Shown here in pieces: positions 1 to 58,164 of a stretch of DNA of 64,000 nucleotides (the stretch's first letter is position 1; every line of letters begins with the position of its first letter). The DNA lies in the NCBI RefSeq assembly GCF_036373705.1, contig NC_089851.1, forward strand, positions 53,823,312 to 53,887,311, given 5' to 3'. Made by a program: the position numbers and the translations under genes. This stretch comes from Amia ocellicauda. Lineage: Eukaryota; Chordata; Actinopteri; Amiiformes; Amiidae. The notes beneath the pieces were generated by a model, which worked only from the letters and a program-made list of their open reading frames with translations, was not told the origin of the DNA and did not search any database.

Positions 1-1650
1 GGGCAAGCGTGTAACTGCTTGGGGCAGACCGGGAGACCTACGCTCACTGACTGATAGCATGGACTGTAGCGCTGAAGTGTCTTTCCAGAATGGTAACCGT
101 ATCCCCAGTGAGACAGCACTGAGAGCATGGTTCAGCAGGCCCGCAAACAACTGAAAAGAATGCCTCTCCTTTGGTGCAGCTCAGGTGTACAGGTTCAACA
201 AAGGTCTCCATAACAAGCCGGCAAACCACATTTCGTCCTCCTCCTTTTTTAACAACACACTACATGTCCTCCTCCTCCTCAACAACAACAACAACAACAA
301 CAACAACAACGAACTTGTAAAAAACACATTTTCTTTAAAGAAAACAAAACACACAGATGACAGTCTGATTTCCCAGCAGCTATACAGTTAACAGTATCTG
401 AGGTCGATAGCCCTCCCTTGTGCAGAGGAGCCCAGAAGCCAGCCTTCAAGAGCAAACACTTCGGTGACTGCAAAGCGGGGCCAAGTGGGCTCATCCTGGA
501 GTTGAACCCAGGGCCTCTCACACCCTCAGCAAGAATCAAACCCCTAGACCAACAAGCCAAGTTAACGGACAGTGTCGCAGTTTCTGCTGGGCAAGCGTGT
601 AACTGCTTGGGGCAGACCGGGAGACCTACGCTCACTGACTGATAGCATGGACTGTAGCGCTGACGTGTCTTTCCAGAATGGTAACGCCATCCCCAGTGAG
701 ACAGCACTGAGAGCATGGTTCAGCAGGCCCGCAAACAACTGAAAAGAATGCCTCTCCTTTGGTGCAGCTCAGGAGTACACGTTCAGCAAAGGTCTCCATA
801 ACAAGCCGGCAAACCACATTTCGTCCTCCTCCTCCTCAACAACACACTACATGTCCTCCTCCTCCTCCTCAACAACAACAACAACAACAACAACGAACTT
901 GTAAAAAACACATTTTCTTTAAAGAAAACAAAACACACAGATGACAGTCTGATTTCCCATCAGCTATACAGGCAACAGTATCTGAGGTCGATAGCCCTCC
1001 CTTGTGCAGAGGAGCCCAGAAGCCAGCCTTCAAGAGCAAACGAACAAACACTTCGGTGACTGCAAAGTGGGGCCAAGTGGGCTCGTCCTGGAGTTGAACC
1101 CAGGGCCTCTCACACCCTCAGCAAGAATCATACCCCTAGACCAACGAGCCAAGTTAACGGAGGGTGTCGCAGTTTCTGCTGGGCAAGCGCGTAACTGCTT
1201 TGGGGCAGACCGGGAGACCTACGCTCACTGACTGATAGCATGGACTGTAGCGCTGACGTGTCTTTCCAGAATGGTAACGCCATCCCCAGTGAGACAGCAC
1301 TGAGAGCATGGTTCAGCAGGCCCGCAAACAACTGAAAAGAATGCCTCTCCTTTGGTGCAGCTCAGGAGTACACGTTCAGCAAAGGTCTCCATAACAAGCC
1401 GGCAAACCACATTTCGTCCTCCTCCTCCTCAACAACACACTACATGTCCTCCTCAACAACAACAACGAACTTGTAAAATACACATTTTCTTTAAAGAAAA
1501 CAAAACACACAGATGACAGTCTGATTTCCCATCAGCTACACAGCCAACAGTATCTGAGGTTGAAAGACCTCCCTGGTGCAGAGGAGCCCAGAAGCCAAGC
1601 ATCGAGAGAGAGCAAACGAATGCTTCAGAGAATGCAAAGCAGGGCCAAGC

Positions 1651-1722
1651 GGGCTCGTACGGGAGTTGAACCCGGGACCTCTCGCACCCAAAGCGAGAAT
1701 CATACCCCTAGACCAACGAGCC
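1651..1722 (-). tRNA. tRNA-Pro (anticodon UGG), near-intact class B copy
   Basis: The cloverleaf is complete: acceptor GGCTCGT pairs with ACGAGCC, the anticodon stem CTCGC pairs with GCGAG, and the loop TTTGGGT gives anticodon UGG with U33 present. Unlike its sister copies it has one substitution in the 3' arm of the T-stem (plus-strand gtacggg instead of gtccggg), which leaves one mismatched pair at the base of that stem. Internal promoter boxes A and B are otherwise intact. It may be expressed at lower efficiency or be an early pseudogene. Confidence 0.8.
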
Positions 1723-3995
1723 AAGTTATCTGACAGTGTCGCAGTTTCTGCTGGGCAAGCGCGTAACTGCTTTGGGGCAGACCGGGAGACCTACGCTCAC
1801 TGACTGATAGCATGGACTGTAGCGCTGACGTGTCTTTCCAGAATGGTAACGCCATCCCCAGTGAGACAGCACTGAGAGCATTGTTCAGCAGGCCCGCAAA
1901 CAACTGAAAAGAATGCCTCTCCTTTGGTGCAGCTCAGGAGTACACGTTCAGCAAAGGTCTCCATAACAAGCCGGCAAACCACATTTCGTCCTCCTCCTCC
2001 TCAACAACACACTACATGTCCTCCTCCTCCTCCTCAACAACAACAACAACAACGAACTTGTAAAAAACACATTTTCTTTAAAGAAAACAAAACACACAGA
2101 TGACAGTCTGATTTCCCATCAGCTATACAGGCAACAGTATCTGAGGTCGATAGCCCTCCCTTGTGCAGAGGAGCCCAGAAGCCAGCCTTCAAGAGCAAAC
2201 GAACAAACACTTCGGTGACTGCAAAGTGGGGCCAAGTGGGCTCATCCTGGAGTTGAACCCAGGGCCTCTCACACCCTCAGCAAGAATCATACCCCTAGAC
2301 CAACGAGCCAAGTTAACGGAGGGTGTCGCAGTTTCTGCTGGGCAAGCGCGTAACTGCTTTGGGGCAGACCGGGAGACCTACGCTCACTGACTGATAGCAT
2401 GGACTGTAGCGCTGACGTGTCTTTCCAGAATGGTAACGCCATCCCCAGTGAGACAGCACTGAGAGCATTGTTCAGCAGGCCCGCAAACAACTGAAAAGAA
2501 TGCCTCTCCTTTGGTGCAGCTCAGGAGTACACGTTCAGCAAAGGTCTCCATAACAAGCCGGCAAACCACATTTCGTCCTCCTCCTCCTCAACAACACACT
2601 ACATGTCCTCCTCCTCCTCCTCAACAACAACAACAACAACAACGAACTTGTAAAAAACACATTTTCTTTAAAGAAAACAAAACACACAGATGACAGTCTG
2701 ATTTCCCATCAGCTATACAGGCAACAGTATCTGAGGTCGATAGCCCTCCCTTGTGCAGAGGAGCCCAGAAGCCAGCCTTCAAGAGCAAACAAACAAACAC
2801 TTCGGTGACTGCAAAGTGGGGCCAAGTGGGCTCATCCTGGAGTTGAACCCAGGGCCTCTCACACCCTCAGCAAGAATCATACCCCTAGACCAACGAGCCA
2901 AGTTAACGGAGGGTGTCGCAGTTTCTGCTGGGCAAGCGCGTAACTGCTTTGGGGCAGACCGGGAGACCTACGCTCACTGACTGATAGCATGGACTGTTGC
3001 GCTGAAGTGTCTTTCCAGAATGGTAACGCCATCCCCAGTGAGACAGCACTGAGAGCATTGTTCAGCAGGCCCGCAAACAACTGAAAAGAATGCCTCTCCT
3101 TTGGTGCAGCTCAGGAGTACACGTTCAGCAAAGGTCTCCATAACAAGCCGGCAAACCACATTTCGTCCTCCTCCTCCTCAACAACACACTACATGTCCTC
3201 CTCCTCCTCCTCAACAACAACAACAACAACAACGAACTTGTAAAAAACACATTTTCTTTAAAGAAAACAAAACACACAGATGACAGTCTGATTTCCCATC
3301 AGCTATACAGGCAACAGTATCTGAGGTCGATAGCCCTCCCTTGTGCAGAGGAGCCCAGAAGCCAGCCTTCAAGAGCAAACGAACAAACACTTCGGTGACT
3401 GCAAAGTGGGGCCAAGTGGGCTCATCCTGGAGTTGAACCCAGGGCCTCTCACACCCTCAGCAAGAATCATACCCCTAGACCAACGAGCCAAGTTAACGGA
3501 GGGTGTCGCAGTTTCTGCTGGGCAAGCGCGTAACTGCTTTGGGGCAGACCGGGAGACCTACGCTCACTGACTGATAGCATGGACTGTTGCGCTGAAGTGT
3601 CTTTCCAGAATGGTAACGCCATCCCCAGTGAGACAGCACTGAGAGCATGGTTCAGCAGGCCCGCAAACAACTGAAAAGAATGCCTCTCCTTTGGTGCAGC
3701 TCAGGAGTACACGTTCAGCAAAGGTCTCCATAACAAGCCGGCAAACCACATTTCGTCCTCCTCCTCCTCAACAACACACTACATGTCCTCCTCCTCCTCA
3801 ACAACAACAACGAACTTGTAAAATACACATTTTCTTTAAAGAAAACAAAACACACAGATGACAGTCTGATTTCCCATCAGCTACACAGCCAACAGTATCT
3901 GAGGTTGAAAGACCTCCCTGGTGCAGAGGAGCCCAGAAGCCAAGCATCGAGAGAGAGCAAACGAATGCTTCAGAGAATGCAAAGCAGGGCCAAGC

Positions 3996-4067
3996 GGGCT
4001 CGTCCGGGAGTTGAACCCGGGACCTCTCGCACCCAAAGCGAGAATCATACCCCTAGACCAACGAGCC
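3996..4067 (-). tRNA. tRNA-Pro (anticodon UGG), intact reference copy of class B
   Basis: This tRNA decodes CCN proline codons. All stems pair: acceptor GGCTCGT/ACGAGCC, anticodon CTCGC/GCGAG and T-stem CCGGG/CCCGG. The anticodon loop is TTTGGGT, with U33 and anticodon UGG. Box A (TGGTCTAGGGG) and box B (GGTTCAACTCC) of the Pol III internal promoter are present. From memory, it differs from the vertebrate tRNA-Pro(UGG) consensus only at one T-loop base. No CCA is encoded, as expected in eukaryotes. On the 3' side only three-T runs occur nearby; the first run of four Ts lies about 150 nt downstream, which is unusual for a vertebrate tRNA gene. Confidence 0.93.
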
Positions 4068-5163
4068 AAGTTATCTGACAGTGTCACAGTTTCTGCTGGG
4101 CAAGCGCGTAACTGCTTTGGGGCAGACCGGGAGACCTACGCTCACTGACTGATAGCATGGACTGTAGCGCTGACGTGTCTTTCCAGAATGGTAACGCCAT
4201 CCCCAGTGAGACAGCACTGAGAGCATTGTTCAGCAGGCCCGCAAACAACTGAAAAGAATGCCTCTCCTTTGGTGCAGCTCAGGAGTACACGTTCAGCAAA
4301 GGTCTCCATAACAAGCCGGCAAACCACATTTCGTCCTCCTCCTCCTCAACAACACACTACATGTCCTCCTCCTCCTCCTCAACAACAACAACAACAACAA
4401 CGAACTTGTAAAAAACACATTTTCTTTAAAGAAAACAAAACACACAGATGACAGTCTGATTTCCCATCAGCTATACAGGCAACAGTATCTGAGGTCGATA
4501 GCCCTCCCTTGTGCAGAGGAGCCCAGAAGCCAGCCTTCAAGAGCAAACGAACAAACACTTCGGTGACTGCAAAGTGGGGCCAAGTGGGCTCATCCTGGAG
4601 TTGAACCCAGGGCCTCTCACACCCTCAGCAAGAATCATACCCCTAGACCAACGAGCCAAGTTAACGGAGGGTGTCGCAGTTTCTGCTGGGCAAGCGCGTA
4701 ACTGCTTTGGGGCAGACCGGGAGACCTACGCTCACTGACTGATAGCATGGACTGTAGCGCTGAAGTGTCTTTCCAGAACGGTAACCGTATCCCCAGTGAG
4801 ACAGCACTGAGAGCATGGTTCAGCAGGCCCGCAAACAACTGAAAAGAATGCCTCTCCTTTGGTGCAGCTCAGGAGTACACGTTCAGCAAAGGTCTCCATA
4901 ACAAGCCGGCAAACCACATTTCGTCCTCCTCCTCCTCAACAACACACTACATGTCCTCCTCCTCCTCAACAACAACAACGAACTTGTAAAATACACATTT
5001 TCTTTAAAGAAAACAAAACACACAGATGACAGTCTGATTTCCCATCAGCTACACAGCCAACAGTATCTGAGGTTGAAAGACCTCCCTGGTGCAGAGGAGC
5101 CCAGAAGCCAAGCATCGAGAGAGAGCAAACGAATGCTTCAGAGAATGCAAAGCAGGGCCAAGC

Positions 5164-5235
5164 GGGCTCGTCCGGGAGTTGAACCCGGGACCTCTCGCAC
5201 CCAAAGCGAGAATCATACCCCTAGACCAACGAGCC
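5164..5235 (-). tRNA. tRNA-Pro (anticodon UGG)
   Basis: The body is identical to the copy at 3996-4067. All stems pair, U33 is present and the anticodon is UGG. Confidence 0.93.
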
Positions 5236-6927
5236 AAGTTATCTGACAGTGTCACAGTTTCTGCTGGGCAAGCGCGTAACTGCTTTGGGGCAGACCGGGA
5301 GACCTACGCTCACTGACTGATAGCATGGACTGTAGCGCTGACGTGTCTTTCCAGAATGGTAACGCCATCCCCAGTGAGACAGCACTGAGAGCATTGTTCA
5401 GCAGGCCCGCAAACAACTGAAAAGAATGCCTCTCCTTTGGTGCAGCTCAGGAGTACACGTTCAGCAAAGGTCTCCATAACAAGCCGGCAAACCACATTTC
5501 GTCCTCCTCCTCCTCAACAACACACTACATGTCCTCCTCCTCCTCCTCAACAACAACAACAACAACAACGAACTTGTAAAAAACACATTTTCTTTAAAGA
5601 AAACAAAACACACAGATGACAGTCTGATTTCCCATCAGCTATACAGGCAACAGTATCTGAGGTCGATAGCCCTCCCTTGTGCAGAGGAGCCCAGAAGCCA
5701 GCCTTCAAGAGCAAACGAACAAACACTTCGGTGACTGCAAAGTGGGGCCAAGTGGGCTCATCCTGGAGTTGAACCCAGGGCCTCTCACACCCTCAGCAAG
5801 AATCATACCCCTAGACCAACGAGCCAAGTTAACGGAGGGTGTCGCAGTTTCTGCTGGGCAAGCGCGTAACTGCTTTGGGGCAGACCGGGAGACCTACGCT
5901 CACTGACTGATAGCATGGACTGTAGCGCTGAAGTGTCTTTCCAGAACGGTAACCGTATCCCCAGTGAGACAGCACTGAGAGCATGGTTCAGCAGGCCCGC
6001 AAACAACTGAAAAGAATGCCTCTCCTTTGGTGCAGCTCAGGAGTACACGTTCAGCAAAGGTCTCCATAACAAGCCGGCAAACCACATTTCGTCCTCCTCC
6101 TCCTCAACAACACACTACATGTCCTCCACCTCCTCCTCAACAACAACAACAACAACAACAACAACGAACTTGTAAAAAACACATTTTCTTTAAAGAAAAC
6201 AAAACACACGGATGACAGTCTGATTTCCCATCAGCTATACGGGCAACAGTATCTGAGGTCGATAGCCCTCCCTTGTGCAGAGGAGCCCAGAAGCCAGCCT
6301 TCAAGAGCAAACGAACAAACACTTCGGTGACTGCAAAGTGGGGCCAAGTGGGCTCGTCCTGGAGTTGAACCCAGGGCCTCTCACACCCTCAGCAAGAATC
6401 ATACCCCTAGACCAACGAGCCAAGTTAACGGAGGGTGTCGCAGTTTCTGCTGGGCAAGCGCGTAACTGCTTTGGGGCAGACCGGGAGACCTACGCTCACT
6501 GACTGATAGCATGGACTGTAGCGCTGAAGTGTCTTTCCAGAACGGTAACCGTATCCCCAGTGAGACAGCACTGAGAGCATGGTTCAGCAGGCCCGCAAAC
6601 AACTGAAAAGAATGCCTCTCCTTTGGTGCAGCTCAGGAGTACACGTTCAGCAAAGGTCTCCATAACAAGCCGGCAAACCACATTTCGTCCTCCTCCTCCT
6701 CAACAACACACTACATGTCCTCCTCCTCCTCAACAACAACAACGAACTTGTAAAATACACATTTTCTTTAAAGAAAACAAAACACACAGATGACAGTCTG
6801 ATTTCCCATCAGCTACACAGCCAACAGTATCTGAGGTTGAAAGACCTCCCTGGTGCAGAGGAGCCCAGAAGCCAAGCATCGAGAGAGAGCAAACGAATGC
6901 TTCAGAGAATGCAAAGCAGGGCCAAGC

Positions 6928-6999
6928 GGGCTCGTCCGGGAGTTGAACCCGGGACCTCTCGCACCCAAAGCGAGAATCATACCCCTAGACCAACGAGCC
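6928..6999 (-). tRNA. tRNA-Pro (anticodon UGG)
   Basis: An intact class B body. Its upstream spacer (7,000-7,060) carries the variant seen at the left edge of the window (goes with gtgtaactgcttgggg) rather than the common gcgtaactgctttgggg. It therefore sits just outside the 3,498-bp duplicated block that starts near 7,063. Confidence 0.93.
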
Positions 7000-8088
7000 A
7001 AGTTAACAGACAGTGTTGCAGTTTCTGCTGGGCAAGCGTGTAACTGCTTGGGGCAGACCGGGAGACCTACGCTCACTGACTGATAGCATGGACTGTAGCG
7101 CTGACGTGTCTTTCCAGAATGGTAACCGTATCCCCAGTGAGACAGCACTGAGAGCATGGTTCAGCAGGCCCGCAAACAACTGAAAAGAATGCCTCTCCTT
7201 TGGTGCAGCTCAGGTGTACAGGTTCAACAAAGGTCTCCATAACAAGCCGGCAAACCACATTTCGTCCTCCTCCTCCTCAACAACACACTACATGTCCTCC
7301 TCCTCCTCCTCAACAACAACAACAACAACAACGAACTTGTAAAAAACACATTTTCTTTAAAGAAAACAAAACACACAGATGACAGTCTGATTTCCCATCA
7401 GCTATACAGGCAACAGTATCTGAGGTCGATAGCCCTCCCTTGTGCAGAGGAGCCCAGAAGCCAGCCTTCAAGAGCAAATGAACAAACACTTCGGTGACTG
7501 CAAAGTGGGGCCAAGTGGGCTCATCCTGGAGTTGAACCCAGGGCCTCTCACACCCTCAGCAAGAATCATACCCCTAGACCAACGAGCCAAGTTAACGGAG
7601 GGTGTCGCAGTTTCTGCTGGGCAAGCGCGTAACTGCTTTGGGGCAGACCGGGAGACCTACGCTCACTGACTGATAGCATGGACTGTAGCGCTGAAGTGTC
7701 TTTCCAGAACGGTAACCGTATCCCCAGTGAGACAGCACTGAGAGCATGGTTCAGCAGGCCCGCAAACAACTGAAAAGAATGCCTCTCCTTTGGTGCAGCT
7801 CAGGAGTACACGTTCAGCAAAGGTCTCCATAACAAGCCGGCAAACCACATTTCGTCCTCCTCCTCCTCAACAACACACTACATGTCCTCCTCAACAACAA
7901 CAACGAACTTGTAAAATACACATTTTCTTTAAAGAAAACAAAACACACAGATGACAGTCTGATTTCCCATCAGCTACACAGCCAACAGTATCTGAGGTTG
8001 AAAGACCTCCCTGGTGCAGAGGAGCCCAGAAGCCAAGCATCGAGAGAGAGCAAACGAATGCTTCAGAGAATGCAAAGCAGGGCCAAGC

Positions 8089-8160
8089 GGGCTCGTCCGG
8101 GAGTTGAACCCGGGACCTCTCGCACCCAAAGCAAGAATCATACCCCTAGACCAACGAGCC
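8089..8160 (-). tRNA. tRNA-Pro (anticodon UGG), one wobble pair in anticodon stem
   Basis: Class B body with one substitution in the 5' arm of the anticodon stem (CTTGC against GCGAG), which turns a C-G pair into U-G. The fold, U33, UGG anticodon and promoter boxes are retained. Its duplicate at 11587-11658 carries the same change. Confidence 0.9.
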
Positions 8161-9256
8161 AAGTTATCTGACAGTGTGACAGTTTCTGCTGGGCAAGCGC
8201 GTAACTGCTTTGGGGCAGACCGGGAGACCTACGCTCACTGACTGATAGCATGGACTGTAGCGCTGACGTGTCTTTCCAGAATGGTAACGCCATCCCCAGT
8301 GAGACAGCACTGAGAGCATGGTTCAGCAGGCCCGCAAACAACTGAAAAGAATGCCTCTCCTTTGGTGCAGCTCAGGAGTACACGTTCAGCAAAGGTCTCC
8401 ATAACAAGCCGGCAAACCACATTTCGTCCTCCTCCTCCTCAACAACACACTACATGTCCTCCTCCTCCTCCTCAACAACAACAACAACAACAACAACAAC
8501 GAACTTGTAAAAAACACATTTTCTTTAAAGAAAACAAAACACACAGATGACAGTCTGATTTCCCATCAGCTATACGGGCAACAGTATCTGAGGTCGATAG
8601 CCCTCCCTTGTGCAGAGGAGCCCAGAAGCCAGCCTTCAAGGGCAAACGAACAAACACTTCGGTGACTGCAAAGTGGGGCCAAGTGGGCTCATCCTGGAGT
8701 TGAACCCAGGGCCTCTCACACCCTCAGCAAGAATCATACCCCTAGACCAACGAGCCAAGTTAACGGAGGGTGTCGCAGTTTCTGCTGGGCAAGCGCGTAA
8801 CTGCTTTGGGGCAGACCGGGAGACCTACGCTCACTGACTGATAGCATGGACTGTAGCGCTGAAGTGTCTTTCCAGAACGGTAACCGTATCCCCAGTGAGA
8901 CAGCACTGAGAGCATGGTTCAGCAGGCCCGCAAACAACTGAAAAGAATGCCTCTCCTTTGGTGCAGCTCAGGAGTACACGTTCAGCAAAGGTCTCCATAA
9001 CAAGCCGGCAAACCACATTTCGTCCTCCTCCTCCTCAACAACACACTACATGTCCTCCTCAACAACAACAACGAACTTGTAAAATACACATTTTCTTTAA
9101 AGAAAACAAAACACACAGATGACAGTCTGATTTCCCATCAGCTACACAGCCAACAGTATCTGAGGTTGAAAGACCTCCCTGGTGCAGAGGAGCCCAGAAG
9201 CCAAGCATCGAGAGAGAGCAAACGAATGCTTCAGAGAATGCAAAGCAGGGCCAAGC

Positions 9257-9328
9257 GGGCTCGTCCGGGAGTTGAACCCGGGACCTCTCGCACCCAAAGC
9301 AAGAATCATACCCCTAGACCAACGAGCC
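9257..9328 (-). tRNA. tRNA-Pro (anticodon UGG), one wobble pair in anticodon stem
   Basis: Same U-G wobble variant of the anticodon stem as at 8089-8160; otherwise intact. It is the counterpart of the copy at 12755-12826 in the six-unit duplication. Confidence 0.9.
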
Positions 9329-10424
9329 AAGTTATCTGACAGTGTCACAGTTTCTGCTGGGCAAGCGCGTAACTGCTTTGGGGCAGACCGGGAGACCTAC
9401 GCTCACTGACTGATAGCATGGACTGTAGCGCTGACGTGTCTTTCCAGAATGGTAACGCCATCCCCAGTGAGACAGCACTGAGAGCATTGTTCAGCAGGCC
9501 CGCAAACAACTGAAAAGAATGCCTCTCCTTTGGTGCAGCTCAGGAGTACACGTTCAGCAAAGGTCTCCATAACAAGCCGGCAAACCACATTTCGTCCTCC
9601 TCCTCCTCAACAACACACTACATGTCCTCCTCCTCCTCCTCAACAACAACAACAACAACAACGAACTTGTAAAAAACACATTTTCTTTAAAGAAAACAAA
9701 ACACACAGATGACAGTCTGATTTCCCATCAGCTATACAGGCAACAGTATCTGAGGTCGATAGCCCTCCCTTGTGCAGAGAAGCCCAGAAGCCAGCCTTCA
9801 AGAGCAAACGAACAAACACTTCGGTGACTGCAAAGTGGGGCCAAGTGGGCTCATCCTGGAGTTGAACCCAGGGCCTCTCACACCCTCAGCAAGAATCATA
9901 CCCCTAGACCAACGAGCCAAGTTAACGGAGGGTGTCGCAGTTTCTGCTGGGCAAGCGCGTAACTGCTTTGGGGCAGACCGGGAGACCTACGCTCACTGAC
10001 TGATAGCATGGACTGTAGCGCTGACGTGTCTTTCCAGAATGGTAACGCCATCCCCAGTGAGACAGCACTGAGAGCATGGTTCAGCAGGCCCGCAAACAAC
10101 TGAAAAGAATGCCTCTCCTTTGGTGCAGCTCAGGAGTACACGTTCAGCAAAGGTCTCCATAACAAGCCGGCAAACCACATTTCGTCCTCCTCCTCCTCAA
10201 CAACACACTACATGTCCTCCTCCTCCTCAACAACAACAACGAACTTGTAAAATACACATTTTCTTTAAAGAAAACAAAACACACAGATGACAGTCTGATT
10301 TCCCATCAGCTACACAGCCAACAGTATCTGAGGTTGAAAGACCTCCCTGGTGCAGAGGAGCCCAGAAGCCAAGCATCGAGAGAGAGCAAACGAATGCTTC
10401 AGAGAATGCAAAGCAGGGCCAAGC

Positions 10425-10496
10425 GGGCTCGTCCGGGAGTTGAACCCGGGACCTCTCGCACCCAAAGCGAGAATCATACCCCTAGACCAACGAGCC
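10425..10496 (-). tRNA. tRNA-Pro (anticodon UGG)
   Basis: Intact class B body without the wobble substitution. It lies at the right end of the first 3,498-bp block and matches the copy at 13923-13994 at the right end of the second. Confidence 0.93.
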
Positions 10497-11586
10497 AAGT
10501 TATCTGACAGTGTCACAGTTTCTGCTGGGCAAGCGCGTAACTGCTTTGGGGCAGACCGGGAGACCTACGCTCACTGACTGATAGCATGGACTGTAGCGCT
10601 GACGTGTCTTTCCAGAATGGTAACCGTATCCCCAGTGAGACAGCACTGAGAGCATGGTTCAGCAGGCCCGCAAACAACTGAAAAGAATGCCTCTCCTTTG
10701 GTGCAGCTCAGGTGTACAGGTTCAACAAAGGTCTCCATAACAAGCCGGCAAACCACATTTCGTCCTCCTCCTCCTCAACAACACACTACATGTCCTCCTC
10801 CTCCTCCTCAACAACAACAACAACAACAACGAACTTGTAAAAAACACATTTTCTTTAAAGAAAACAAAACACACAGATGACAGTCTGATTTCCCATCAGC
10901 TATACAGGCAACAGTATCTGAGGTCGATAGCCCTCCCTTGTGCAGAGGAGCCCAGAAGCCAGCCTTCAAGAGCAAATGAACAAACACTTCGGTGACTGCA
11001 AAGTGGGGCCAAGTGGGCTCATCCTGGTGTTGAACCCAGGGCCTCTCACACCCTCAGCAAGAATCATACCCCTAGACCAACGAGCCAAGTTAACGGAGGG
11101 TGTCGCAGTTTCTGCTGGGCAAGCGCGTAACTGCTTTGGGGCAGACCGGGAGACCTACGCTCACTGACTGATAGCATGGACTGTAGCGCTGAAGTGTCTT
11201 TCCAGAACGGTAACCGTATCCCCAGTGAGACAGCACTGAGAGCATGGTTCAGCAGGCCCGCAAACAACTGAAAAGAATGCCTCTCCTTTGGTGCAGCTCA
11301 GGAGTACACGTTCAGCAAAGGTCTCCATAACAAGCCGGCAAACCACATTTCGTCCTCCTCCTCCTCAACAACACACTACATGTCCTCCTCAACAACAACA
11401 ACGAACTTGTAAAATACACATTTTCTTTAAAGAAAACAAAACACACAGATGACAGTCTGATTTCCCATCAGCTACACAGCCAACAGTATCTGAGGTTGAA
11501 AGACCTCCCTGGTGCAGAGGAGCCCAGAAGCCAAGCATCGAGAGAGAGCAAACGAATGCTTCAGAGAATGCAAAGCAGGGCCAAGC

Positions 11587-11658
11587 GGGCTCGTCCGGGA
11601 GTTGAACCCGGGACCTCTCGCACCCAAAGCAAGAATCATACCCCTAGACCAACGAGCC
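11587..11658 (-). tRNA. tRNA-Pro (anticodon UGG), wobble variant
   Basis: Duplicate of 8089-8160, sharing its anticodon-stem U-G wobble and the neighbouring spacer variant gtgtgacag. Confidence 0.9.
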
Positions 11659-12754
11659 AAGTTATCTGACAGTGTGACAGTTTCTGCTGGGCAAGCGCGT
11701 AACTGCTTTGGGGCAGACCGGGAGACCTACGCTCACTGACTGATAGCATGGACTGTAGCGCTGACGTGTCTTTCCAGAATGGTAACGCCATCCCCAGTGA
11801 GACAGCACTGAGAGCATGGTTCAGCAGGCCCGCAAACAACTGAAAAGAATGCCTCTCCTTTGGTGCAGCTCAGGAGTACACGTTCAGCAAAGGTCTCCAT
11901 AACAAGCCGGCAAACCACATTTCGTCCTCCTCCTCCTCAACAACACACTACATGTCCTCCTCCTCCTCCTCAACAACAACAACAACAACAACAACAACGA
12001 ACTTGTAAAAAACACATTTTCTTTAAAGAAAACAAAACACACAGATGACAGTCTGATTTCCCATCAGCTATACGGGCAACAGTATCTGAGGTCGATAGCC
12101 CTCCCTTGTGCAGAGGAGCCCAGAAGCCAGCCTTCAAGGGCAAACGAACAAACACTTCGGTGACTGCAAAGTGGGGCCAAGTGGGCTCATCCTGGAGTTG
12201 AACCCAGGGCCTCTCACACCCTCAGCAAGAATCATACCCCTAGACCAACGAGCCAAGTTAACGGAGGGTGTCGCAGTTTCTGCTGGGCAAGCGCGTAACT
12301 GCTTTGGGGCAGACCGGGAGACCTACGCTCACTGACTGATAGCATGGACTGTAGCGCTGAAGTGTCTTTCCAGAACGGTAACCGTATCCCCAGTGAGACA
12401 GCACTGAGAGCATGGTTCAGCAGGCCCGCAAACAACTGAAAAGAATGCCTCTCCTTTGGTGCAGCTCAGGAGTACACGTTCAGCAAAGGTCTCCATAACA
12501 AGCCGGCAAACCACATTTCGTCCTCCTCCTCCTCAACAACACACTACATGTCCTCCTCAACAACAACAACGAACTTGTAAAATACACATTTTCTTTAAAG
12601 AAAACAAAACACACAGATGACAGTCTGATTTCCCATCAGCTACACAGCCAACAGTATCTGAGGTTGAAAGACCTCCCTGGTGCAGAGGAGCCCAGAAGCC
12701 AAGCATCGAGAGAGAGCAAACGAATGCTTCAGAGAATGCAAAGCAGGGCCAAGC

Positions 12755-12826
12755 GGGCTCGTCCGGGAGTTGAACCCGGGACCTCTCGCACCCAAAGCAA
12801 GAATCATACCCCTAGACCAACGAGCC
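12755..12826 (-). tRNA. tRNA-Pro (anticodon UGG), wobble variant
   Basis: Duplicate of 9257-9328. The full cloverleaf, U33 and UGG anticodon are retained. Confidence 0.9.
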
Positions 12827-13922: not shown

Positions 13923-13994
13923 GGGCTCGTCCGGGAGTTGAACCCGGGACCTCTCGCACCCAAAGCGAGAATCATACCCCTAGACCAACGAGCC
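13923..13994 (-). tRNA. tRNA-Pro (anticodon UGG)
   Basis: Intact class B body, identical to the reference copy. It is the last class B unit of the second 3,498-bp block. Confidence 0.93.
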
Positions 13995-43200: not shown

Positions 43201-46200
43201 AGCCCAGAAGCCAGCCTTCAAGAGCAAACGAACAAACACTTCGGTGACTGCAAAGTAGGGCCAAGTGGGCTCGTCCTGGAGTTGAACCCAGGGCCTCTCA
43301 CACCCTCAGCAAGAATCATACCCCTAGACCAACGAGCCAAGTTAACGGAGGGTGTCGCAGTTTCTGCTGGGCAAGCGCGTAACTGCTTTGGGGCAGACCG
43401 GGAGACCTACGCTCACTGACTGATAGCATGGACTGTAGCGCTGACGTGTCTTTCCAGAACGGTAACCGTATCCCCAGTGAGACAGCACTGAGAGCATGGT
43501 TCAGCAGGCCCGCAAACAACTGAAAAGAATGCCTCTCCTTTGGTGCAGCTCAGGAGTACACGTTCAGCAAAGGTCTCCATAACAAGCCGGCAAACCACAT
43601 TTCGTCCTCCTCCTCCTCAACAACACACTACATGTCCTCCTCCTCCTCAACAACAACAACGAACTTGTAAAATACACATTTTCTTTAAAGAAAACAAAAC
43701 ACACAGATGACAGTCTGATTTCCCATCAGCTACACAGCCAACAGTATCTGAGGTTGAAAGACCTCCCTGGTGCAGAGGAGCCCAGAAGCCAAGCATCAAG
43801 AGAGAACAAACGAATGCTTCAGAGAATGCAAAGCAGGGCCAAGCAGGCTCGTCTGGGAGTTGATCCCGGGACCTCTCGCACCCAAAGCGAGAATCATACC
43901 CCTAGACCAACGAGCCAAGTTATCTGACAGTGTCGCAGTTTCTGCTGGGCAAGCGCATAACTGCTTTGGGGCAGACCGGGAGACCTACGCTCACTGACTG
44001 ATAGCATGGACTGTAGCGCTGACGTGTCTTTCCAGAATGGTAACGCCATCCCCAGTGAGACAGCACTGAGAGCATTGTTCAGCAGGCCCGCAAACAACTG
44101 AAAAGAATGCCTCTCCTTTGGTGCAGCTCAGGAGTACACGTTCAGCAAAGGTCTCCATAACAAGCCGGCAAACCACATTTCGTCCTCCTCCTCCTCAACA
44201 ACACACTACATGTCCTCCACCTCCTCCTCAACAACAACAACAACAACAACAACGAACTTGTAAAAAACACATTTTCTTTAAAGAAAACAAAACACACAGA
44301 TGACAGTCTGATTTCCCATCAGCTATACGGGCAACAGTATCTGAGGTCGATAGCCCTCCCTTGTGCAGAGAAGCCCAGAAGCCAGCCTTCAAAAGCAAAC
44401 GAACAAACACTTCGGTGACTGCAAAGTGGGGCCAAGTGGGCTCGTCCTGGAGTTGAACCCAGGGCCTCTCACACTCTCAGCAAGAATCATACCCCTAGAC
44501 CAACGAGCCAAGTTAACGGAGGGTGTCGCAGTTTCTGCTGAGCAAGCGCGTAACTGCTTTGGGGCAGACCGGGAGACCTACGCTCACTGACTGATAGCAT
44601 GGACTGTAGCGCTGAAGTGTCTTTCCAGAACGGTAACCGTATCCCCAGTGAGACAGCACTGAGAGCATGGTTCAGCAGGCCCGCAAACAACTGAAAAGAA
44701 TGCCTCTCCTTTGGTGCAGCTCAGGAGTACACGTTCAGCAAAGGTCTCCATAACAAGCCGGCAAACCACATTTCGTCCTCCTCCTCCTCAACAACACACT
44801 ACATGTCCTCCTCCTCCTCAACAACAACAACGAACTTGTAAAATACACATTTTCTTTAAAGAAAACAAAACACACAGATGACAGTCTGATTTCCCATCAG
44901 CTTTACAGGCAACAGTATCTGAGGTCGATAGCCCTACCTTGTGCAGAGGAGCCCAGAAGCCAGCCTTCAAGAGCAAACGAACAAACACTTCGGTGACTGC
45001 AAAGTGGGGCCAAGTGGGCTCGTCCTGGAGTTGAACCCAGGGCCTCTCACACCCTCAGCAAGAATCATACCCCTAGACCAACGAGCCAAGTTAACGGAGG
45101 GTGTCGCAGTTTCTGCTGGGCAAGCGCGTAACTGCTTTGGGGCAGACCGGGAGACCTACGCTCACTGACTGATAGCATGGACTGTAGCGCTGACGTGTCT
45201 TTCCAGAATGGTAACGCCATCCCCAGTGAGACAGCACTGAGAGCATGGTTCAGCAGGCCCGCAAACAACTGAAAAGAATGCCTCTCCTTTGGTGCAGCTC
45301 AGGAGTACACGTTCAGCAAAGGTCTCCATAACAAGCCGGCAAACCACATTTCGTCCTCCTCCTCCTCAACAACACACTACATGTCCTCCACCTCCTCCTC
45401 AACAACAACAACAACAACAACAACGAACTTGTAAAAAACACATTTTCTTTAAAGAAAACAAAACACACAGATGACAGTCTGATTTCCCATCAGCTTTACA
45501 GGCAACAGTATCTGAGGTCGATAGCCCTCCCTTGTGCAGAGGAGCCCAGAAGCCAGCCTTCAAGAGCAAACGAACAATCACTTCGGTGACTGCAAAGTGA
45601 GGCCAAGTGGGCTCGTCCTGGAGTTGAACCCAGGGCCTCTCACACCCTCAGCAAGAATCATACCCCTAGACCAACGAGCCAAGTTAACGGAGGGTGTCGC
45701 AGTTTCTGCTGGGCAAGCGCGTAACTGCTTTGGGGCAGACCGGGAGACCTACGCTCACTGACTGATAGCATGGACTGTAGCGCTGACGTGTCTTTCCAGA
45801 ATGGTAACGCCATCCCCAGTGAGACAGCACTGAGAGCATGGTTCAGCAGGCCCGCAAACAACTGAAAAGAATGCCTCTCCTTTGGTGCAGCTCAGGAGTA
45901 CACGTTCAGCAAAGGTCTCCATAACAAGCCGGCAAACCACATTTCGTCCTCCTCCTCCTCAACAACACACTACATGTCCTCCACCTCCTCCTCAACAACA
46001 ACAACAACAACAACGAACTTGTAAAAAACACATTTTCTTTAAAGAAAACAAAACACACAGATGACAGTCTGATTTCCCATCAGCTTTACAGGCAACAGTA
46101 TCTGAGGTCGATAGCCCTCCCTTGTGCAGAGGAGCCCAGAAGCCAGCCTTCAAGAGCAAACGAACAAACACTTCGGTGACTGCAAAGTGGGGCCAAGTGG

Positions 46201-47294
46201 GCTCGTCCTGGAGTTGAACCCAGGGCCTCTCACACCCTCAGCAAGAATCATACCCCTAGACCAACGAGCCAAGTTAACGGAGGGTGTCGCAGTTTCTGCT
46301 GGGCAAGCGCGTAACTGCTTTGGGGCAGACCGGGAGACCTACGCTCACTGACTGATAGCATGGACTGTAGCGCTGACGTGTCTTTCCAGAATGGTAACGC
46401 CATCCCCAGTGAGACAGCACTGAGAGCATGGTTCAGCAGGCCCGCAAACAACTGAAAAGAATGCCTCTCCTTTGGTGCAGCTCAGGAGTACACGTTCAGC
46501 AAAGGTCTCCATAACAAGCCGGCAAACCACATTTCGTCCTCCTCCTCCTCAACAACACACTACATGTCCTCCACCTCCTCCTCAACAACAACAACAACAA
46601 CAACAACGAACTTGTAAAAAACACATTTTCTTTAAAGAAAACAAAACACACAGATGACAGCCCGATTTCCCATCAGCTATACGGGCAACAGTATCTGAGG
46701 TCGATAGCCCTCCCTTGTGCAGAGGAGCCCAGAAGCCAGCCTTCAAGAGCAAACGAACAAACACTTCGGTGACTGCAAAGTAGGGCCAAGTGGGCTCGTC
46801 CTGGAGTTGAACCCAGGGCCTCTCACACCCTCAGCAAGAATCATACCCCTAGACCAACGAGCCAAGTTAACGGAGGGTGTCGCAGTTTCTGCTGGGCAAG
46901 CGCGTAACTGCTTTGGGGCAGACCGGGAGACCTACGCTCACTGACTGATAGCATGGACTGTAGCGCTGACGTGTCTTTCCAGAACGGTAACCGTATCCCC
47001 AGTGAGACAGCACTGAGAGCATGGTTCAGCAGGCCCGCAAACAACTGAAAAGAATGCCTCTCCTTTGGTGCAGCTCAGGAGTACACGTTCAGCAAAGGTC
47101 TCCATAACAAGCCGGCAAACCACATTTCGTCCTCCTCCTCCTCAACAACACACTACATGTCCTCCTCCTCCTCAACAACAACAACGAACTTGTAAAATAC
47201 ACATTTTCTTTAAAGAAAACAAAACACACAGATGACAGTCTGATTTCCCATCAGCTACACAGCCAACAGTATCTGAGGTTGAAAGACCTCCCTG
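40245..47294. repeat. 3,525-bp six-unit higher-order repeat, copies 2 and 3 in tandem
   Basis: Units start at 40,245 and 43,770 with identical internal spacings (593, 578, 593, 590, 593, 578) and the same marker order as the block at 29,125. One private change (gtgtcacag near 39,832) lies just before copy 2. Confidence 0.82.
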
Positions 47295-50098: not shown

Positions 50099-50099
50099 C

Positions 50100-50170
<71 letters not shown>
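50099..50170. repeat. Expanded (CAA)24 microsatellite in an array unit
   Basis: 24 uninterrupted CAA triplets, where most class A units have 7-9 and most class B units about 3-4. It sits between the second TCC tract and the conserved cgaacttg. The expansion lengthens this dimer to 1,219 bp. Confidence 0.97.
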
Positions 50171-51895
50171 CGAACTTGTAAAAAACACATTTTCTTTAAA
50201 GAAAACAAAACACACAGATGACAGCCCGATTTCCCATCAGCTATACGGGCAACAGTATCTGAGGTCGATAGCCCTCCCTTGTGCAGAGGAGCCCAGAAGC
50301 CAGCCTTCAAGAGCAAACGAACAAACACTTCGGTGACTGCAAAGTAGGGCCAAGTGGGCTCGTCCTGGAGTTGAACCCAGGGCCTCTCACACCCTCAGCA
50401 AGAATCATACCCCTAGACCAACGAGCCAAGTTAACGGAGGGTGTCGCAGTTTCTGCTGGGCAAGCGCGTAACTGCTTTGGGGCAGACCGGGAGACCTACG
50501 CTCACTGACTGATAGCATGGACTGTAGCGCTGACGTGTCTTTCCAGAACGGTAACCGTATCCCCAGTGAGACAGCACTGAGAGCATGGTTCAGCAGGCCC
50601 GCAAACAACTGAAAAGAATGCCTCTCCTTTGGTGCAGCTCAGGAGTACACGTTCAGCAAAGGTCTCCATAACAAGCCGGCAAACCACATTTCGTCCTCCT
50701 CCTCCTCAACAACACACTACATGTCCTCCTCCTCCTCAACAACAACAACGAACTTGTAAAATACACATTTTCTTTAAAGAAAACAAAACACACAGATGAC
50801 AATCTGATTTCCCATCAGCTACACAGCCAACAGTATCTGAGGTTGAAAGACCTCCCTGGTGCAGAGGAGCCCAGAAGCCAAGCATCAAGAGAGAACAAAC
50901 GAATGCTTCAGAGAATGCAAAGCAGGGCCAAGCAGGCTCGTCTGGGAGTTGATCCCGGGACCTCTCGCACCCAAAGCGAGAATCATACCCCTAGACCAAC
51001 GAGCCAAGTTATCTGACAGTGTCGCAGTTTCTGCTGGGCAAGCGCATAACTGCTTTGGGGCAGACCGGGAGACCTACGCTCACTGACTGATAGCATGGAC
51101 TGTAGCGCTGACGTGTCTTTCCAGAATGGTAACGCCATCCCCAGTGAGACAGCACTGAGAGCATTGTTCAGCAGGCCCGCAAACAACTGAAAAGAATGCC
51201 TCTCCTTTGGTGCAGCTCAGGAGTACACGTTCAGCAAAGGTCTCCATAACAAGCCGGCAAACCACATTTCGTCCTCCTCCTCCTCAACAACACACTACAT
51301 GTCCTCCTCCTCCTCAACAACAACAACGAACTTGTAAAATACACATTTTCTTTAAAGAAAACAAAACACACAGATGACAGTCTGATTTCCCATCAGCTAC
51401 ACAGCCAACAGTATCTGAGGTTGAAAGACCTCCCTGGTGCAGAGGAGCCCAGAAGCCAAGCATCAAGAGAGAACAAACGAATGCTTCAGAGAATGCAAAG
51501 CAGGGCCAAGCAGGCTCGTCTGGGAGTTGATCCCGGGACCTCTCGCACCCAAAGCGAGAATCATACCCCTAGACCAACGAGCCAAGTTATCTGACAGTGT
51601 CGCAGTTTCTGCTGGGCAAGCGCATAACTGCTTTGGGGCAGACCGGGAGACCTACGCTCACTGACTGATAGCATGGACTGTAGCGCTGACGTGTCTTTCC
51701 AGAATGGTAACGCCATCCCCAGTGAGACAGCACTGAGAGCATTGTTCAGCAGGCCCGCAAACAACTGAAAAGAATGCCTCTCCTTTGGTGCAGCTCAGGA
51801 GTACACGTTCAGCAAAGGTCTCCATAACAAGCCGGCAAACCACATTTCGTCCTCCTCCTCCTCAACAACACACTACATGTCCTCCTCCTCCTCCT

Positions 51896-51896
51896 C

Positions 51897-51949
<53 letters not shown>
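51896..51949. repeat. Expanded (CAA)18 microsatellite in an array unit
   Basis: 18 CAA triplets at the same unit position as the 24-copy tract 1.8 kb to the left. The two expanded units are separated by two B' units in direct succession. Confidence 0.97.
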
Positions 51950-54485
51950 CGAACTTGTAAAAAACACATTTTCTTTAAAGAAAACAAAACACACAGATGA
52001 CAGCCCGATTTCCCATCAGCTATACGGGCAACAGTATCTGAGGTCGATAGCCCTCCCTTGTGCAGAGGAGCCCAGAAGCCAGCCTTCAAGAGCAAACGAA
52101 CAAACACTTCGGTGACTGCAAAGTAGGGCCAAGTGGGCTCGTCCTGGAGTTGAACCCAGGGCCTCTCACACCCTCAGCAAGAATCATACCCCTAGACCAA
52201 CGAGCCAAGTTAACGGAGGGTGTCGCAGTTTCTGCTGGGCAAGCGCGTAACTGCTTTGGGGCAGACCGGGAGACCTACGCTCACTGACTGATAGCATGGA
52301 CTGTAGCGCTGACGTGTCTTTCCAGAACGGTAACCGTATCCCCAGTGAGACAGCACTGAGAGCATGGTTCAGCAGGCCCGCAAACAACTGAAAAGAATGC
52401 CTCTCCTTTGGTGCAGCTCAGGAGTACACGTTCAGCAAAGGTCTCCATAACAAGCCGGCAAACCACATTTCGTCCTCCTCCTCCTCAACAACACACTACA
52501 TGTCCTCCTCCTCCTCAACAACAACAACGAACTTGTAAAATACACATTTTCTTTAAAGAAAACAAAACACACAGATGACAGTCTGATTTCCCATCAGCTA
52601 CACAGCCAACAGTATCTGAGGTTGAAAGACCTCCCTGGTGCAGAGGAGCCCAGAAGCCAAGCATCAAGAGAGAACAAACGAATGCTTCAGAGAATGCAAA
52701 GCAGGGCCAAGCAGGCTCGTCTGGGAGTTGATCCCGGGACCTCTCGCACCCAAAGCGAGAATCATACCCCTAGACCAACGAGCCAAGTTATCTGACAGTG
52801 TCGCAGTTTCTGCTGGGCAAGCGCATAACTGCTTTGGGGCAGACCGGGAGACCTACGCTCACTGACTGATAGCATGGACTGTAGCGCTGACGTGTCTTTC
52901 CAGAATGGTAACGCCATCCCCAGTGAGACAGCACTGAGAGCATTGTTCAGCAGGCCCGCAAACAACTGAAAAGAATGCCTCTCCTTTGGTGCAGCTCAGG
53001 AGTACACGTTCAGCAAAGGTCTACATAACAAGCCGGCAAACCACATTTCGTCCTCCTCCTCCTCAACAACACACTACATGTCCTCCTCCTCCTCCTCAAC
53101 AACAACAACAACAACAACAACAACAACGAACTTGTAAAAAACACATTTTCTTTAAAGAAAACAAAACACACAGATGACAGTCTGATTTCCCATCAGCTTT
53201 ACAGGCAACAGTATCTGAGGTCGATAGCCCTCCCTTGTGCAGAGGAGCCCAGAAGCCAGCCTTCAAGAGCAAACGAACAAACACTTCGGTGACTGCAAAG
53301 AGGGGCCAAGTGGGCTCGTCCTGGAGTTGAACCCAGGGCCTCTCACACCCTCAGCAAGAATCATAACCCTAGACCAACGAGCCTAGTTAACGGAGGGTGT
53401 CGCAGTTTCTGCTGGGCAAGCGCGTAACTGCTTTGGGGCAGACCGGGAGACCTACGCTCACTGACTGATAGCATGGACTGTAGCGCTGACGTGTCTTTCC
53501 AGAATGGTAACGCCATCCCCAGTGAGACAGCACTGAGAGCATGGTTCAGCAGGCCCGCAAACAACTGAAAAGAATGCCTCTCCTTTGGTGCAGCTCAGGA
53601 GTACACGTTCAGCAAAGGTCTCCATAACAAGCCGGCAAACCACATTTCGTCCTCCTCCTCCTCAACAACACACTACATGTCCTCCACCTCCTCCTCAACA
53701 ACAACAACAACAACAACAACAACGAACTTGTAAAAAACACATTCTCTTTAAAGAAAACAAAACACACAGATGACAGCCTGATTTCCCATCAGCTATACGG
53801 GCAACAGTATCTGAGGTCGATAGCCCTCCCTTGTGCAGAGGAGCCCAGAAGCCAGCCTTCAAGAGCAAACGAACAAACACTTCGGTGACTGCAAAGTGGG
53901 GCCAAGTGGGCTCGTCCTGGAGTTGAACCCAGGGCCTCTCACACCCTCAGCAAGAATCATACCCCTAGACCAACGAGCCTAGTTAACGGAGGGTGTTGCA
54001 GTTTCTGCTGGGCAAGCGCGTAACTGCTTTGGGGCAGACCGGGAGACCTACGCTCACTGACTGATAGCATGGACTGTAGCGCTGACGTGTCTTTCCAGAA
54101 TGGTAACGCCATCCCCAGTGAGACAGCACTGAGAGCATGGTTCAGCAGGCCCGCAAACAACTGAAAAGAATGCCTCTCCTTTGGTGCAGCTCAGGAGTAC
54201 ACGTTCAGCAAAGGTCTCCATAACAAGCCGGCAAACCACATTTCGTCCTCCTCCTCCTCAACAACACACTACATGTCCTCCTCCTCCTCAACAACAACAA
54301 CGAACTTGTAAAATACACATTTTCTTTAAAGAAAACAAAACACACAGATGACAGTCTGATTTCCCATCAGCTACACAGCCAACAGTATCTGAGGTTGAAA
54401 GACCTCCCTGGTGCAGAGGAGCCCAGAAGCCAAGCATCGAGAGAGAACAAACGAATGCTTCAGAGAATGCAAAGCGGGGCCAAGC

Positions 54486-54557
54486 GGGCTCGTCCGGGAG
54501 CTGAACCCGGGACCTCTCGCACCCTAAACGAGAATCATACCCCTAGACCAACGAGCC
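54486..54557 (-). tRNA. tRNA-Pro-like (anticodon AGG), weakened copy
   Basis: The anticodon loop is TTAGGGT, giving AGG with U33 present. One anticodon-stem pair is a U-G wobble (CTCGT/GCGAG). The T-loop reads TTCAGCT, which replaces the conserved A58. The T-stem and acceptor are intact. It is the leftmost of three AGG copies near the array end and may be less stable than the next two. Confidence 0.75.
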
Positions 54558-55067
54558 AAGTTAACGGAGGGTGTCGCAGTTTCTGCTGGGCAAGCGCGTA
54601 ACTGCTTTGGGGCAGACCGGGAGACCTACGCTCACTGACTGATAGCATGGACTGTAGCGCTGAAGTGTCTTTCCAGAACGGTAACCGTATCCCCAGTGAG
54701 ACAGCACTGAGAGCATGGTTCAGCAGGCCCGCAAACAACTGAAAAGAATGCCTCTCCTTTGGTGCAGCTCAGGAGTACACGTTCAGCAAAGGTCTCCATA
54801 ACAAGCCGGCAAACCACATTTCGTCCTCCTCCTCCTCAACAACACACTACATGTCCTCCTCCTCAACAACAACGAACTTGTAAAATACACATTTTCTTTA
54901 AAGAAAACAAAACACACAGATAACAGTCTGATTTCCCATCAGCTACACAGCCAACAGTATCTGAGGTTGAAAGACCTCCCTGGTGCAGAGGAGCCCAGAA
55001 GCCAAGCATCGAGAGAGAACAAACGAATGCTTCAGAGAATGCAAAGCGGGGCCAAGCGGGCTCGTCC

Positions 55068-55139
55068 GGGAGTTGAACCCGGGACCTCTCGCACCCTAAG
55101 CGAGAATCATACCCCTAGACCAACGAGCCAAGTTAACGG
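55068..55139 (-). tRNA. tRNA-Pro (anticodon AGG)
   Basis: Complete cloverleaf: acceptor GGCTCGT/ACGAGCC, anticodon stem CTCGC/GCGAG, loop TTAGGGT with U33 and anticodon AGG, T-stem CCGGG/CCCGG, and intact boxes A and B. AGG (read with inosine 34 after deamination) is the usual major proline isoacceptor of eukaryotes. It differs from the UGG class B body at the wobble base 34. The unit has a class B spacer. Confidence 0.93.
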
Positions 55140-55635
55140 AGGGTGTTGCAGTTTCTGCTGGGCAAGCGCGTAACTGCTTTGGGGCAGACCGGGAGACCTA
55201 CGCTCACTGACTGATAGCATGGACTGTAGCGCTGAAGTGTCTTTCCAGAACGGTAACCGTATCCCCAGTGAGACAGCACTGAGAGCATGGTTCAGCAGGC
55301 CCGCAAACAACTGAAAAGAATGCCTCTCCTTTGGTGCAGCTCAGGAGTACACGTTCAGCAAAGGTCTCCATAACAAGCCGGCAAACCACATTTCGTCCTC
55401 CTCCTCCTCAACAACACACTACATGTCCTCCTCCTCCTCAACAACAACAACGAACTTGTAAAATACACATTTTCTTTAAAGAAAACAAAACACACAGATG
55501 ACAGTCTGATTTCCCATCAGCTACACAGCCAACAGTATCTGAGGTTGAAAGACCTCCCTGGTGCAGAGGAGCCCAGAAGCCAAGCATCGAGAGAGAACAA
55601 ACGAATGCTTCAGAGAATGCAAAGCGGGGCCAAGC

Positions 55636-55707
55636 GGGCTCGTCCGGGAGTTGAACCCGGGACCTCTCGCACCCTAAGCGAGAATCATACCCCTAGACCA
55701 ACGAGCC
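55636..55707 (-). tRNA. tRNA-Pro (anticodon AGG)
   Basis: Same intact body as at 55068-55139. It is the last intact tRNA gene before the array edge. Confidence 0.93.
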
Positions 55708-56213
55708 AAGTTAACGGAGGGTGTCGCAGTTTCTGCTGGGCAAGCGCGTAACTGCTTTGGGGCAGACCGGGAGACCTACGCTCACTGACTGATAGCATGG
55801 ACTGTAGCGCTGAAGTGTCTTTCCAGAACGGTAACCGTATCCCCAGTGAGACAGCACTGAGAGCATGGTTCAGCAGGCCCGCAAACAACTGAAAAGAATG
55901 CCTCTCCTTTGGTGCAGCTCAGGAGTACACGTTCAGCAAAGGTCTCCATAACAAGCCGGCAAACCACATTTCGTCCTCCTCCTCCTCAACAACACACTAC
56001 ATGTCCTCCTCCTCCTCAACAACAACAACGAACTTGTAAAATACACATTTTCTTTAAAGAAAACAAAACACACAGATGACAGTCTGATTTCCCATCAGCT
56101 ACACAGCCAACAGTATGTGAGGTTGAAAGACCTCCCTGGTGCAGAGGAGCCCAGAAGCCAAGCATCGAGAGAGAACAAACGAATGCTTCAGAGAATGCAA
56201 AGCGGGGCCAAGC

Positions 56214-56285
56214 GGGCTCGTCCTGGAGTTGAACCCAGGGCCTCTCACACCCTCAGCAAGAATCATACCCCTAGACCAACGAGCC
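56214..56285 (-). pseudogene. Hybrid terminal unit: class A tRNA body in class B flank
   Basis: The 3' flank of this last tRNA (56,120-56,213) is class B type, as in the AGG units to its left, but the tRNA body itself has the class A anticodon loop (TGAGGGT) and shifted T-stem. The crossover lies within a few bases of the start of the T-stem, near 56,220. The spacer beyond it (56,286-56,345) is clearly diverged from all other units. This unit may be an old edge copy spared from homogenisation, or the product of a conversion event. Confidence 0.8.
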
Positions 56286-56712
56286 AAGCTAATAGGCAAT
56301 ATTGCATGTTCTCCTGGGCAAGCACATAACTGCTTGAGGCAGACCCTCACCTGATCACCACATGTGGTTACACTTTAAGAAGGGGTGAGTTTAAGGTCAT
56401 CGGTAACATCACAAAGGTTGGCAGCATTTTACATGAATATGTAAAGTTAAAAACACACACTACATGTAAATAAGCCATACTACTTGTTTAGTGTATGTAA
56501 GCTCGTTCTGTAATCATACATCATCCATACTAGTATTTAATAATTGAATTAACTATACACAAACTACTTGGTCAATTCACTCTTGTTACCGTGTAATTAC
56601 AGTGCAAGTAAATTGTAATAATTGTAGCGTTGTATATTGGGCCATATTTTACATGTAACTATATATTTCATATTTGTCCAATTAATGTACATTTGTTTTT
56701 TTTGTTTTTTAG
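56286..56712. other. Array edge and AT-rich flank, no gene seen
   Basis: From 56,286 to 56,345 the unit spacer is still recognisable (ctgggcaagc, aactgctt, ggcagacc) but heavily changed, then similarity stops. The remainder is AT-rich unique-looking DNA with no open frame of note. It ends in a strong pyrimidine run (56,691-56,710, nearly all T) followed by AG at 56,711-56,712, a good splice-acceptor-like string. Confidence 0.7.
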
Positions 56713-56784: not shown

Positions 56785-56856
56785 CCGCTGATACAAGTAA
56801 ATAGTGTTTCCTCAAATCTAAAGTGAGACCTTTTTGAATGAATCTGTAATACATGC

Positions 56857-58117: not shown

Positions 58118-58164
58118 GAAGTATGCTGATTTCAGAACCTCTATGAAATAGATTCCTTATTTTT

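Follow-up and report, generated by a model that had tools for sequence, protein, structure and literature searches.

Repeated tRNA genes have been described in several systems. According to the available text of these reports, the long arm of zebrafish chromosome 4 gathers many repeated tRNA copies on one chromosome (PMC11417395), and large teleost tRNA clusters hold fifty and more genes in parallel orientation (PMC2888827). The human 1q23.3 tRNA tandem repeat varies in number between 9 and 43 units (PMC4041453), Entamoeba arrays consist of tandem tRNA units with short tandem repeats between the genes (PMC2652664), and reptile satellites derived from short interspersed elements (SINEs) are tandem repeats built from sequence related to RNA polymerase III (Pol III) genes (PMC10702118). 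Here we analyzed a 64,000-nucleotide stretch of the Amia ocellicauda genome (988 Mb, 385 contigs), C2:53823312-53887311, hereafter the window. Most of it is occupied by a tandem array of units that each carry one tRNA-Pro-derived body. In its behaviour this array is best read as closer to satellite DNA than to a cluster of working genes, because most copies examined look broken and lack the normal stop signal.

The locus shares features with each of these systems and departs from each of them. As around zebrafish chromosome 4, 5S-like copies lie nearby and non-array genes lie elsewhere; the Amia window copies are mostly damaged and the intact ones have no near run of four T (T4), which may or may not set them apart from the zebrafish copies. 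The preliminary description of the window had called such an array uncommon, which has to be tempered in view of the teleost clusters of fifty and more tRNA genes, but the satellite-like nesting and the dominant defective subtype seen here are not described in the available text on those clusters (PMC2888827). The human repeat is described with 7.3-kb units, CTCF binding and a proposed boundary role (PMC4041453), against units of 557-641 bp here. Almost all Entamoeba tRNA genes are reported as arrayed (PMC2652664), whereas complete tRNA-Pro genes exist outside the Amia arrays. The counterpart here of the Entamoeba short repeats is CAA runs, with 24 copies at 50099-50171 and 18 at 51896-51950, each in a single unit, and 8-10 copies in the other units listed. 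Unlike the reptile satellites (PMC10702118), the Amia unit has a body close to a tRNA gene. What stands out is the dominance of a damaged lineage, the absence of near terminators even on sound copies, and the satellite-like nesting. Our literature searches, which covered titles and abstract openings, returned no description of this array or of a tRNA-Pro satellite with G in place of U at position 33 (U33G).

A tRNA-Pro body pattern, with up to 12 substitutions allowed, was searched against the window. It returned 96 tRNA-Pro-derived bodies between 488 and 56285, all on the minus strand, in agreement with the preliminary description of about 96 units in one orientation over more than 56 kb. ARAGORN likewise made 96 calls, 95 of them array bodies and one a copy on the plus strand at 60109; the body at 19800 was not among them. 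The array and its right edge are as follows.

1 to 56285, minus strand: tandem array of 96 tRNA-Pro-derived bodies (64 U33G, 29 TGG, 3 AGG) in units of 557-641 bp, from the body search
56287 to 56345, minus strand: diverged 59-bp unit remnant at the right edge of the array

This remnant places the right edge at 56345, as first described. The unit length given there, 570-600 bp, covers the commonest sizes (578 bp in 33 of 95 units, 593 bp in 26 and 590 bp in 16) but not the full range of 557-641 bp. The very high similarity it claimed is borne out by the 95 complete units, whose mean pairwise identity is 0.959 with a minimum of 0.913. The array does continue past the window: with two adjacent stretches added on the left, its left end falls at about C2:53809592, some 13.7 kb beyond the window start. 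The full array thus spans about 70 kb and holds 120 bodies (79 U33G, 34 TGG, 4 CGG and 3 AGG), 19 of which are intact by all marks. There is no N anywhere in the window.

To score the bodies, tRNA position numbers were assigned in this analysis by the usual convention. A body was called intact if it has U33, paired stems and unchanged A and B boxes; a U·U in the D stem, common to all 96 bodies, was disregarded. Only 13 of the 96 window bodies are intact by all marks, and the other 83 fall short on one or more of them. U33 with an NGG anticodon is present in 32 bodies and absent from 64. The latter, named type B, combine U33G with a G·A mismatch in the T stem, and type B is separated from the AGG body by six fixed differences, U33G included. 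A further 16 bodies have a TGG anticodon, T54A in the B box and a C·A mismatch in the T stem. The earlier view of a single tRNA-Pro isotype is not borne out: two thirds of the bodies (64/96) have G at position 33, the rest divide into 29 TGG and 3 AGG, and CGG occurs in the left part. Representative bodies are located as follows.

1080 to 1150, minus strand: example of the commonest type B body (U33G, T-stem G·A mismatch), whose 71-nt sequence recurs exactly in 38 of the 96 bodies
22744 to 52784, minus strand: the 16 TGG bodies with T54A and the C·A T-stem mismatch, interspersed with type B
3997 to 18678, minus strand: 11 intact TGG bodies amid defective ones, starting at 3997, 5165, 6929, 8090, 9258, 10426, 11588, 12756, 13924, 15676 and 18608
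55059 to 55129, minus strand: intact AGG body near the right edge
55637 to 55707, minus strand: intact AGG body near the right edge

The gathering score of the Rfam tRNA model was reached by 31 of the 96 bodies. In a laxer short-stretch Rfam search with two type B bodies, one scored 30.3 bits against a threshold of 29 and the other was unlisted, so type B is borderline for this model. The cloverleaf energy was about −26.8 kcal/mol for types A and T, −23.8 kcal/mol for type t, and −16.3 and −14.5 kcal/mol for two B bodies. ARAGORN labels type B as tRNA-Leu (GAG). A tRNA-Leu has a long variable arm. We rejected this label: the body is 71 nt with a 5-nt variable region and no long variable arm, the anticodon was placed one base earlier than in the Pro copies, and the anticodon stem of type B pairs completely when read in the Pro register. 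An Rfam search of 52700-64000 with E up to 1 gave three tRNA matches and one weak match to a small Cajal body-specific RNA outside the array, and no other RNA gene in the unit.

Most units also lack a near stop signal. In the window, the first TTTT lies 147 nt past the body in 90 of 95 units (58 of the 63 type B units) and at 45 nt in the other 5. We extended this count to 228 bodies from 11 loci, namely the whole array, its flank and nine other body-bearing loci, with three decayed inverted copies included. Among these, 62 bodies are intact; none of the 62 has a TTTT within 60 nt downstream, compared with 6 of the 166 others. The leftmost body (L010 6615-6686) is followed 13-14 nt downstream by TTTT at a place occupied by TTT in other units; this may be left over from a lost terminator or have arisen by chance. 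As a control, we searched the genome with an exact pattern carrying A59; the control is small, and other genes may escape such a pattern. Six matches lie outside the arrays, one on C7 and five on C25 within about 48 kb. Five of them are complete tRNA-Pro genes (2 TGG and 3 AGG), and in all five a T4 or T5 starts at 3-6 nt; the sixth has no normal 5' half. The three AGG genes are not independent, because their flanks are very similar. The five C25 matches occupy 1227663-1275875; four belong to the complete genes with T4 or T5 at 3-6 nt, and the fifth is the one that has no normal 5' half. Position 59 is C in intact array bodies and A in the complete non-array genes, so that array and non-array tRNA-Pro would be distinguishable isodecoders.

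Among other tRNA copies of the surrounding block, T4 starts at 4 nt in 4 of 4 tRNA-Asn copies, at 53-58 nt in six tRNA-Thr copies (L016 and L017), and at 200 nt or not within 300 nt in two Thr copies and an Ala-like copy in L010. The missing near T4 is therefore not peculiar to Pro in this block, as Thr and Ala-like copies have a distant T4 or none.

The repeat structure carries the marks of a satellite. An exact repeat 3,021 bp long occurs at an offset of 1,171 bp, indicating dimers, and one 4,156 bp long at an offset of 3,525 bp, indicating a six-unit higher-order repeat.

39814 to 46863, minus strand: two successive copies of the 3,525-bp six-unit repeat, with an exact match of 4,156 bp at this offset, starting at 40063

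This 4,156-bp repeat is the longest exact one in the window; once the left part is included, the longest measures 4,280 bp. The left end also carries a duplication of 19 units, whose copies lie 11,035 bp apart and have identities of 0.999-1.000 in 1-kb windows. Of the 95 units, 61 are distinct, and some are chimeric, combining B and non-B diagnostic sites. The array is thus arranged head to tail, homogenised by exchange and organised in higher-order repeats, which is what a satellite would show.

We compared body and spacer diversity among 120 U33G, 40 TGG and 39 AGG units, using 71-column spacer windows. Spacer windows no more diverse than the body made up 50% (U33G), 89% (TGG) and 62% (AGG). 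The consensus of type B departs from that of the others at 7 of the 71 positions in the body and at 27 of the 504 in the spacer, and 22 of these 27 lie within about 110 bp past the body. Selection on the body or the boxes, looked for by diversity and box tests, was not clearly found, and retention of the boxes is not significant. C-to-T and G-to-A changes favour CpG sites, at 12/38 versus 14/265 in type B and 11/48 versus 8/250 in the others.

Taken together, these results lead us to the reading that a tRNA-Pro gene family was captured by satellite dynamics and is mostly dead as tRNA in the window, to which we give a probability of roughly 0.74. Capture of a tRNA gene had been proposed in the preliminary description and is well supported by the higher-order repeats, the near-perfect 11-kb duplication and the chimeric units; the diverged edge units, the lack of clear extra body conservation and the damage to most copies add to it. 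We propose that a unit made of one tRNA-Pro body and some 510 bp of spacer multiplied into a head-to-tail array, that the units then split into old subtypes, B against A/T, and that unequal exchange would homogenise the array at several scales. The array would yield hardly any mature tRNA or none, Pol III transcripts of most units would extend by read-through to about 220 nt from the start of the body, and tRNA-Pro would come from the complete genes outside the arrays, on C7 and C25. The locus would then display, side by side, the steps by which a tRNA gene family turns into a satellite: intact copies, a lineage without U33, another with a damaged B box that exchange has spread, absent terminators, and complete genes kept in other places. 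Counting genes in genomes of this kind would give too high an estimate of the tRNA-Pro supply.

Several observations weigh against this reading. In U33G units, mean spacer diversity (0.0246) exceeds that of the body (0.0141), although the median spacer window equals the body, and within the window alone the spacer mean of U33G units is again above the body. The type B consensus has 0 of 22 positions changed in boxes A and B versus 6 of 49 elsewhere in the body (p 0.17). The observed/expected CpG ratio is higher in the array (0.525) than in the flank (0.290), which heavy methylation alone would not lead one to expect. The minimum-energy fold is not a cloverleaf for any tested type, so this measure does not separate the types. 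Intact copies persist, with 13 of 96 in the window, 62 of 228 sampled and 349 exact AGG signatures genome-wide. Finally, read-through is reported for many yeast tRNA genes, with surveillance acting on such transcripts, and terminators at least 50 nt away are cited for human, in the available text of PMC4937561; the missing T4 therefore lowers, without excluding, tRNA output.

Copies of the body are abundant beyond the window. A 27-nt 5' half, common to most array copies and the complete non-array genes, has 1,956 exact matches in the genome, the U33G signature 903, and a signature of the AGG anticodon plus T arm 349; these counts cover the whole genome, while the places listed are the first ones, all on C2. 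Reversed-pattern controls gave 0 matches in the 988 Mb. One exact pattern each, searched in viral_contigs and genome_contigs, also had 0 matches; as these are viral, bacterial and archaeal collections, this carries little weight. The sequence to the right of the array recurs as well.

56346 to 64000, no strand assigned: right flank, copies of which, about 99% identical, adjoin further arrays on this contig

In L018 and L020 the match covers 6.6 kb at about 99%, and in L005 it covers 922 bp at 100%; L021, L027 and L028 match along 1.1-2.1 kb with 99.0-99.9% identity (the window's own place is L003). With a 414-bp probe across the array-flank junction, 40 of 135 candidates were scored and all 40 matched, giving at least 40 junctions at 98-100%. 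Thirty-six are on C2 at 51.33-60.14 Mb in both orientations, and 4 are on C52, C58 and C135. The 22 plus-orientation junctions at 51.3-55.3 Mb have a median interval of about 92 kb, with 18 of 21 intervals at 47-166 kb and three at 598-855 kb.

We considered whether oocytes might draw maternal tRNA-Pro from the intact array copies and later stages rely on the non-array genes, with the type B and t copies tolerated as dead weight. In zebrafish, according to the available text of PMC11417395, the isodecoders of eggs originate in repeated copies and the late ones in genes that are scattered, and other arrays are richer in intact AGG copies (for example 10 of 15 in L026 and 8 of 15 in L021). But a near T4 in 0 of 62 intact copies, against 4 of 4 tRNA-Asn of the same block, and the mere 13 of 96 intact in the window make such a supply unlikely, though it is the strongest of the rival readings. 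The C59/A59 difference offers a marker that could show directly if, in a species other than zebrafish, the egg draws on repeated tRNA genes. A Pol III locus of two classes seems very improbable to us: intact C59 copies would give an egg-specific tRNA-Pro isodecoder, and the U33G copies, which are more numerous and have kept boxes and no near terminator, would give putative non-tRNA transcripts of about 220 nt that serve a separate role. If U33G units were transcribed into such ~220-nt RNAs, the excess of 903 exact U33G over 349 AGG signatures, the unchanged boxes of the type B consensus and the distance of 147 nt to the first TTTT, seen in 58 of the 63 type B units, would fit, but box retention is not significant and the body has no clear extra conservation, and we hold little belief in this source.

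Misassembly of the array or of its copy number has equally little to recommend it. The near-identical 11-kb duplication, the flank copies at 98-100% and the 4 of 40 junctions on C52, C58 and C135 would suit an artefact; the window, however, has no N, 61 of 95 units are distinct, and the longest exact repeat is 4,156 bp, or 4,280 bp with the left part. Long reads are usually longer than exact repeats of about 4 kb. The refutation first envisaged, an assembly artefact with only a few real units, is disfavoured as far as the existence of the array goes, but copy number depends on the assembly and stays uncertain because 4 of 40 junctions are on other contigs at small-numbered coordinates. A putative chromatin boundary, at which the array would recruit TFIIIC or other factors and separate domains, is the role we credit least, and the Pol III-loaded heterochromatin boundary of the preliminary description finds no support here. 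It could draw on the human tRNA tandem repeat with CTCF, proposed as a boundary in the available text of PMC4041453, and on the unchanged A and B boxes of the type B consensus, but at least 40 similar junctions in one region fit no single border, and the B box is damaged in 16 copies. We therefore retain satellite capture of a tRNA-Pro family as the preferred reading.

The surrounding block was read in part. Since 9 of 20 sampled stretches have no unit, the block is a mosaic. Thirteen sampled 10-kb stretches contain Pro, Thr, Asn and one Ala-like tRNA, as well as two 5S-like copies; by analogy, this mosaic with tRNA-Thr, tRNA-Asn and 5S-like copies appears to resemble the zebrafish chromosome 4 long arm. 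The 5S rRNA-like copies, at L014 1961-2079 and L019 5625-5743, score 44.6 bits against an Rfam gathering score of 38. A tandem repeat of about 142 bp lies beside tRNA-Thr and tRNA-Asn (L016 1-7406, L017 1-6257), and a related stretch lies left of the array in L010. L025-L027, at 54.15-54.41 Mb on C2, hold a shorter unit, about 410 bp long, whose match is limited to positions 25-441 of the 578-bp query.

The right flank holds one further copy of the unit.

59845 to 60180, plus strand: decayed inverted unit (spacer part 59845-60083, body 60109-60180), also present in L018 and L020

The same flank has stop-free matches to DDE_3, a Tc1/mariner-type transposase piece, at 56842-57516 (plus) and 62682-62930 (minus), and a match to the reverse transcriptase domain RVT_1 at 63359-63754 (plus).

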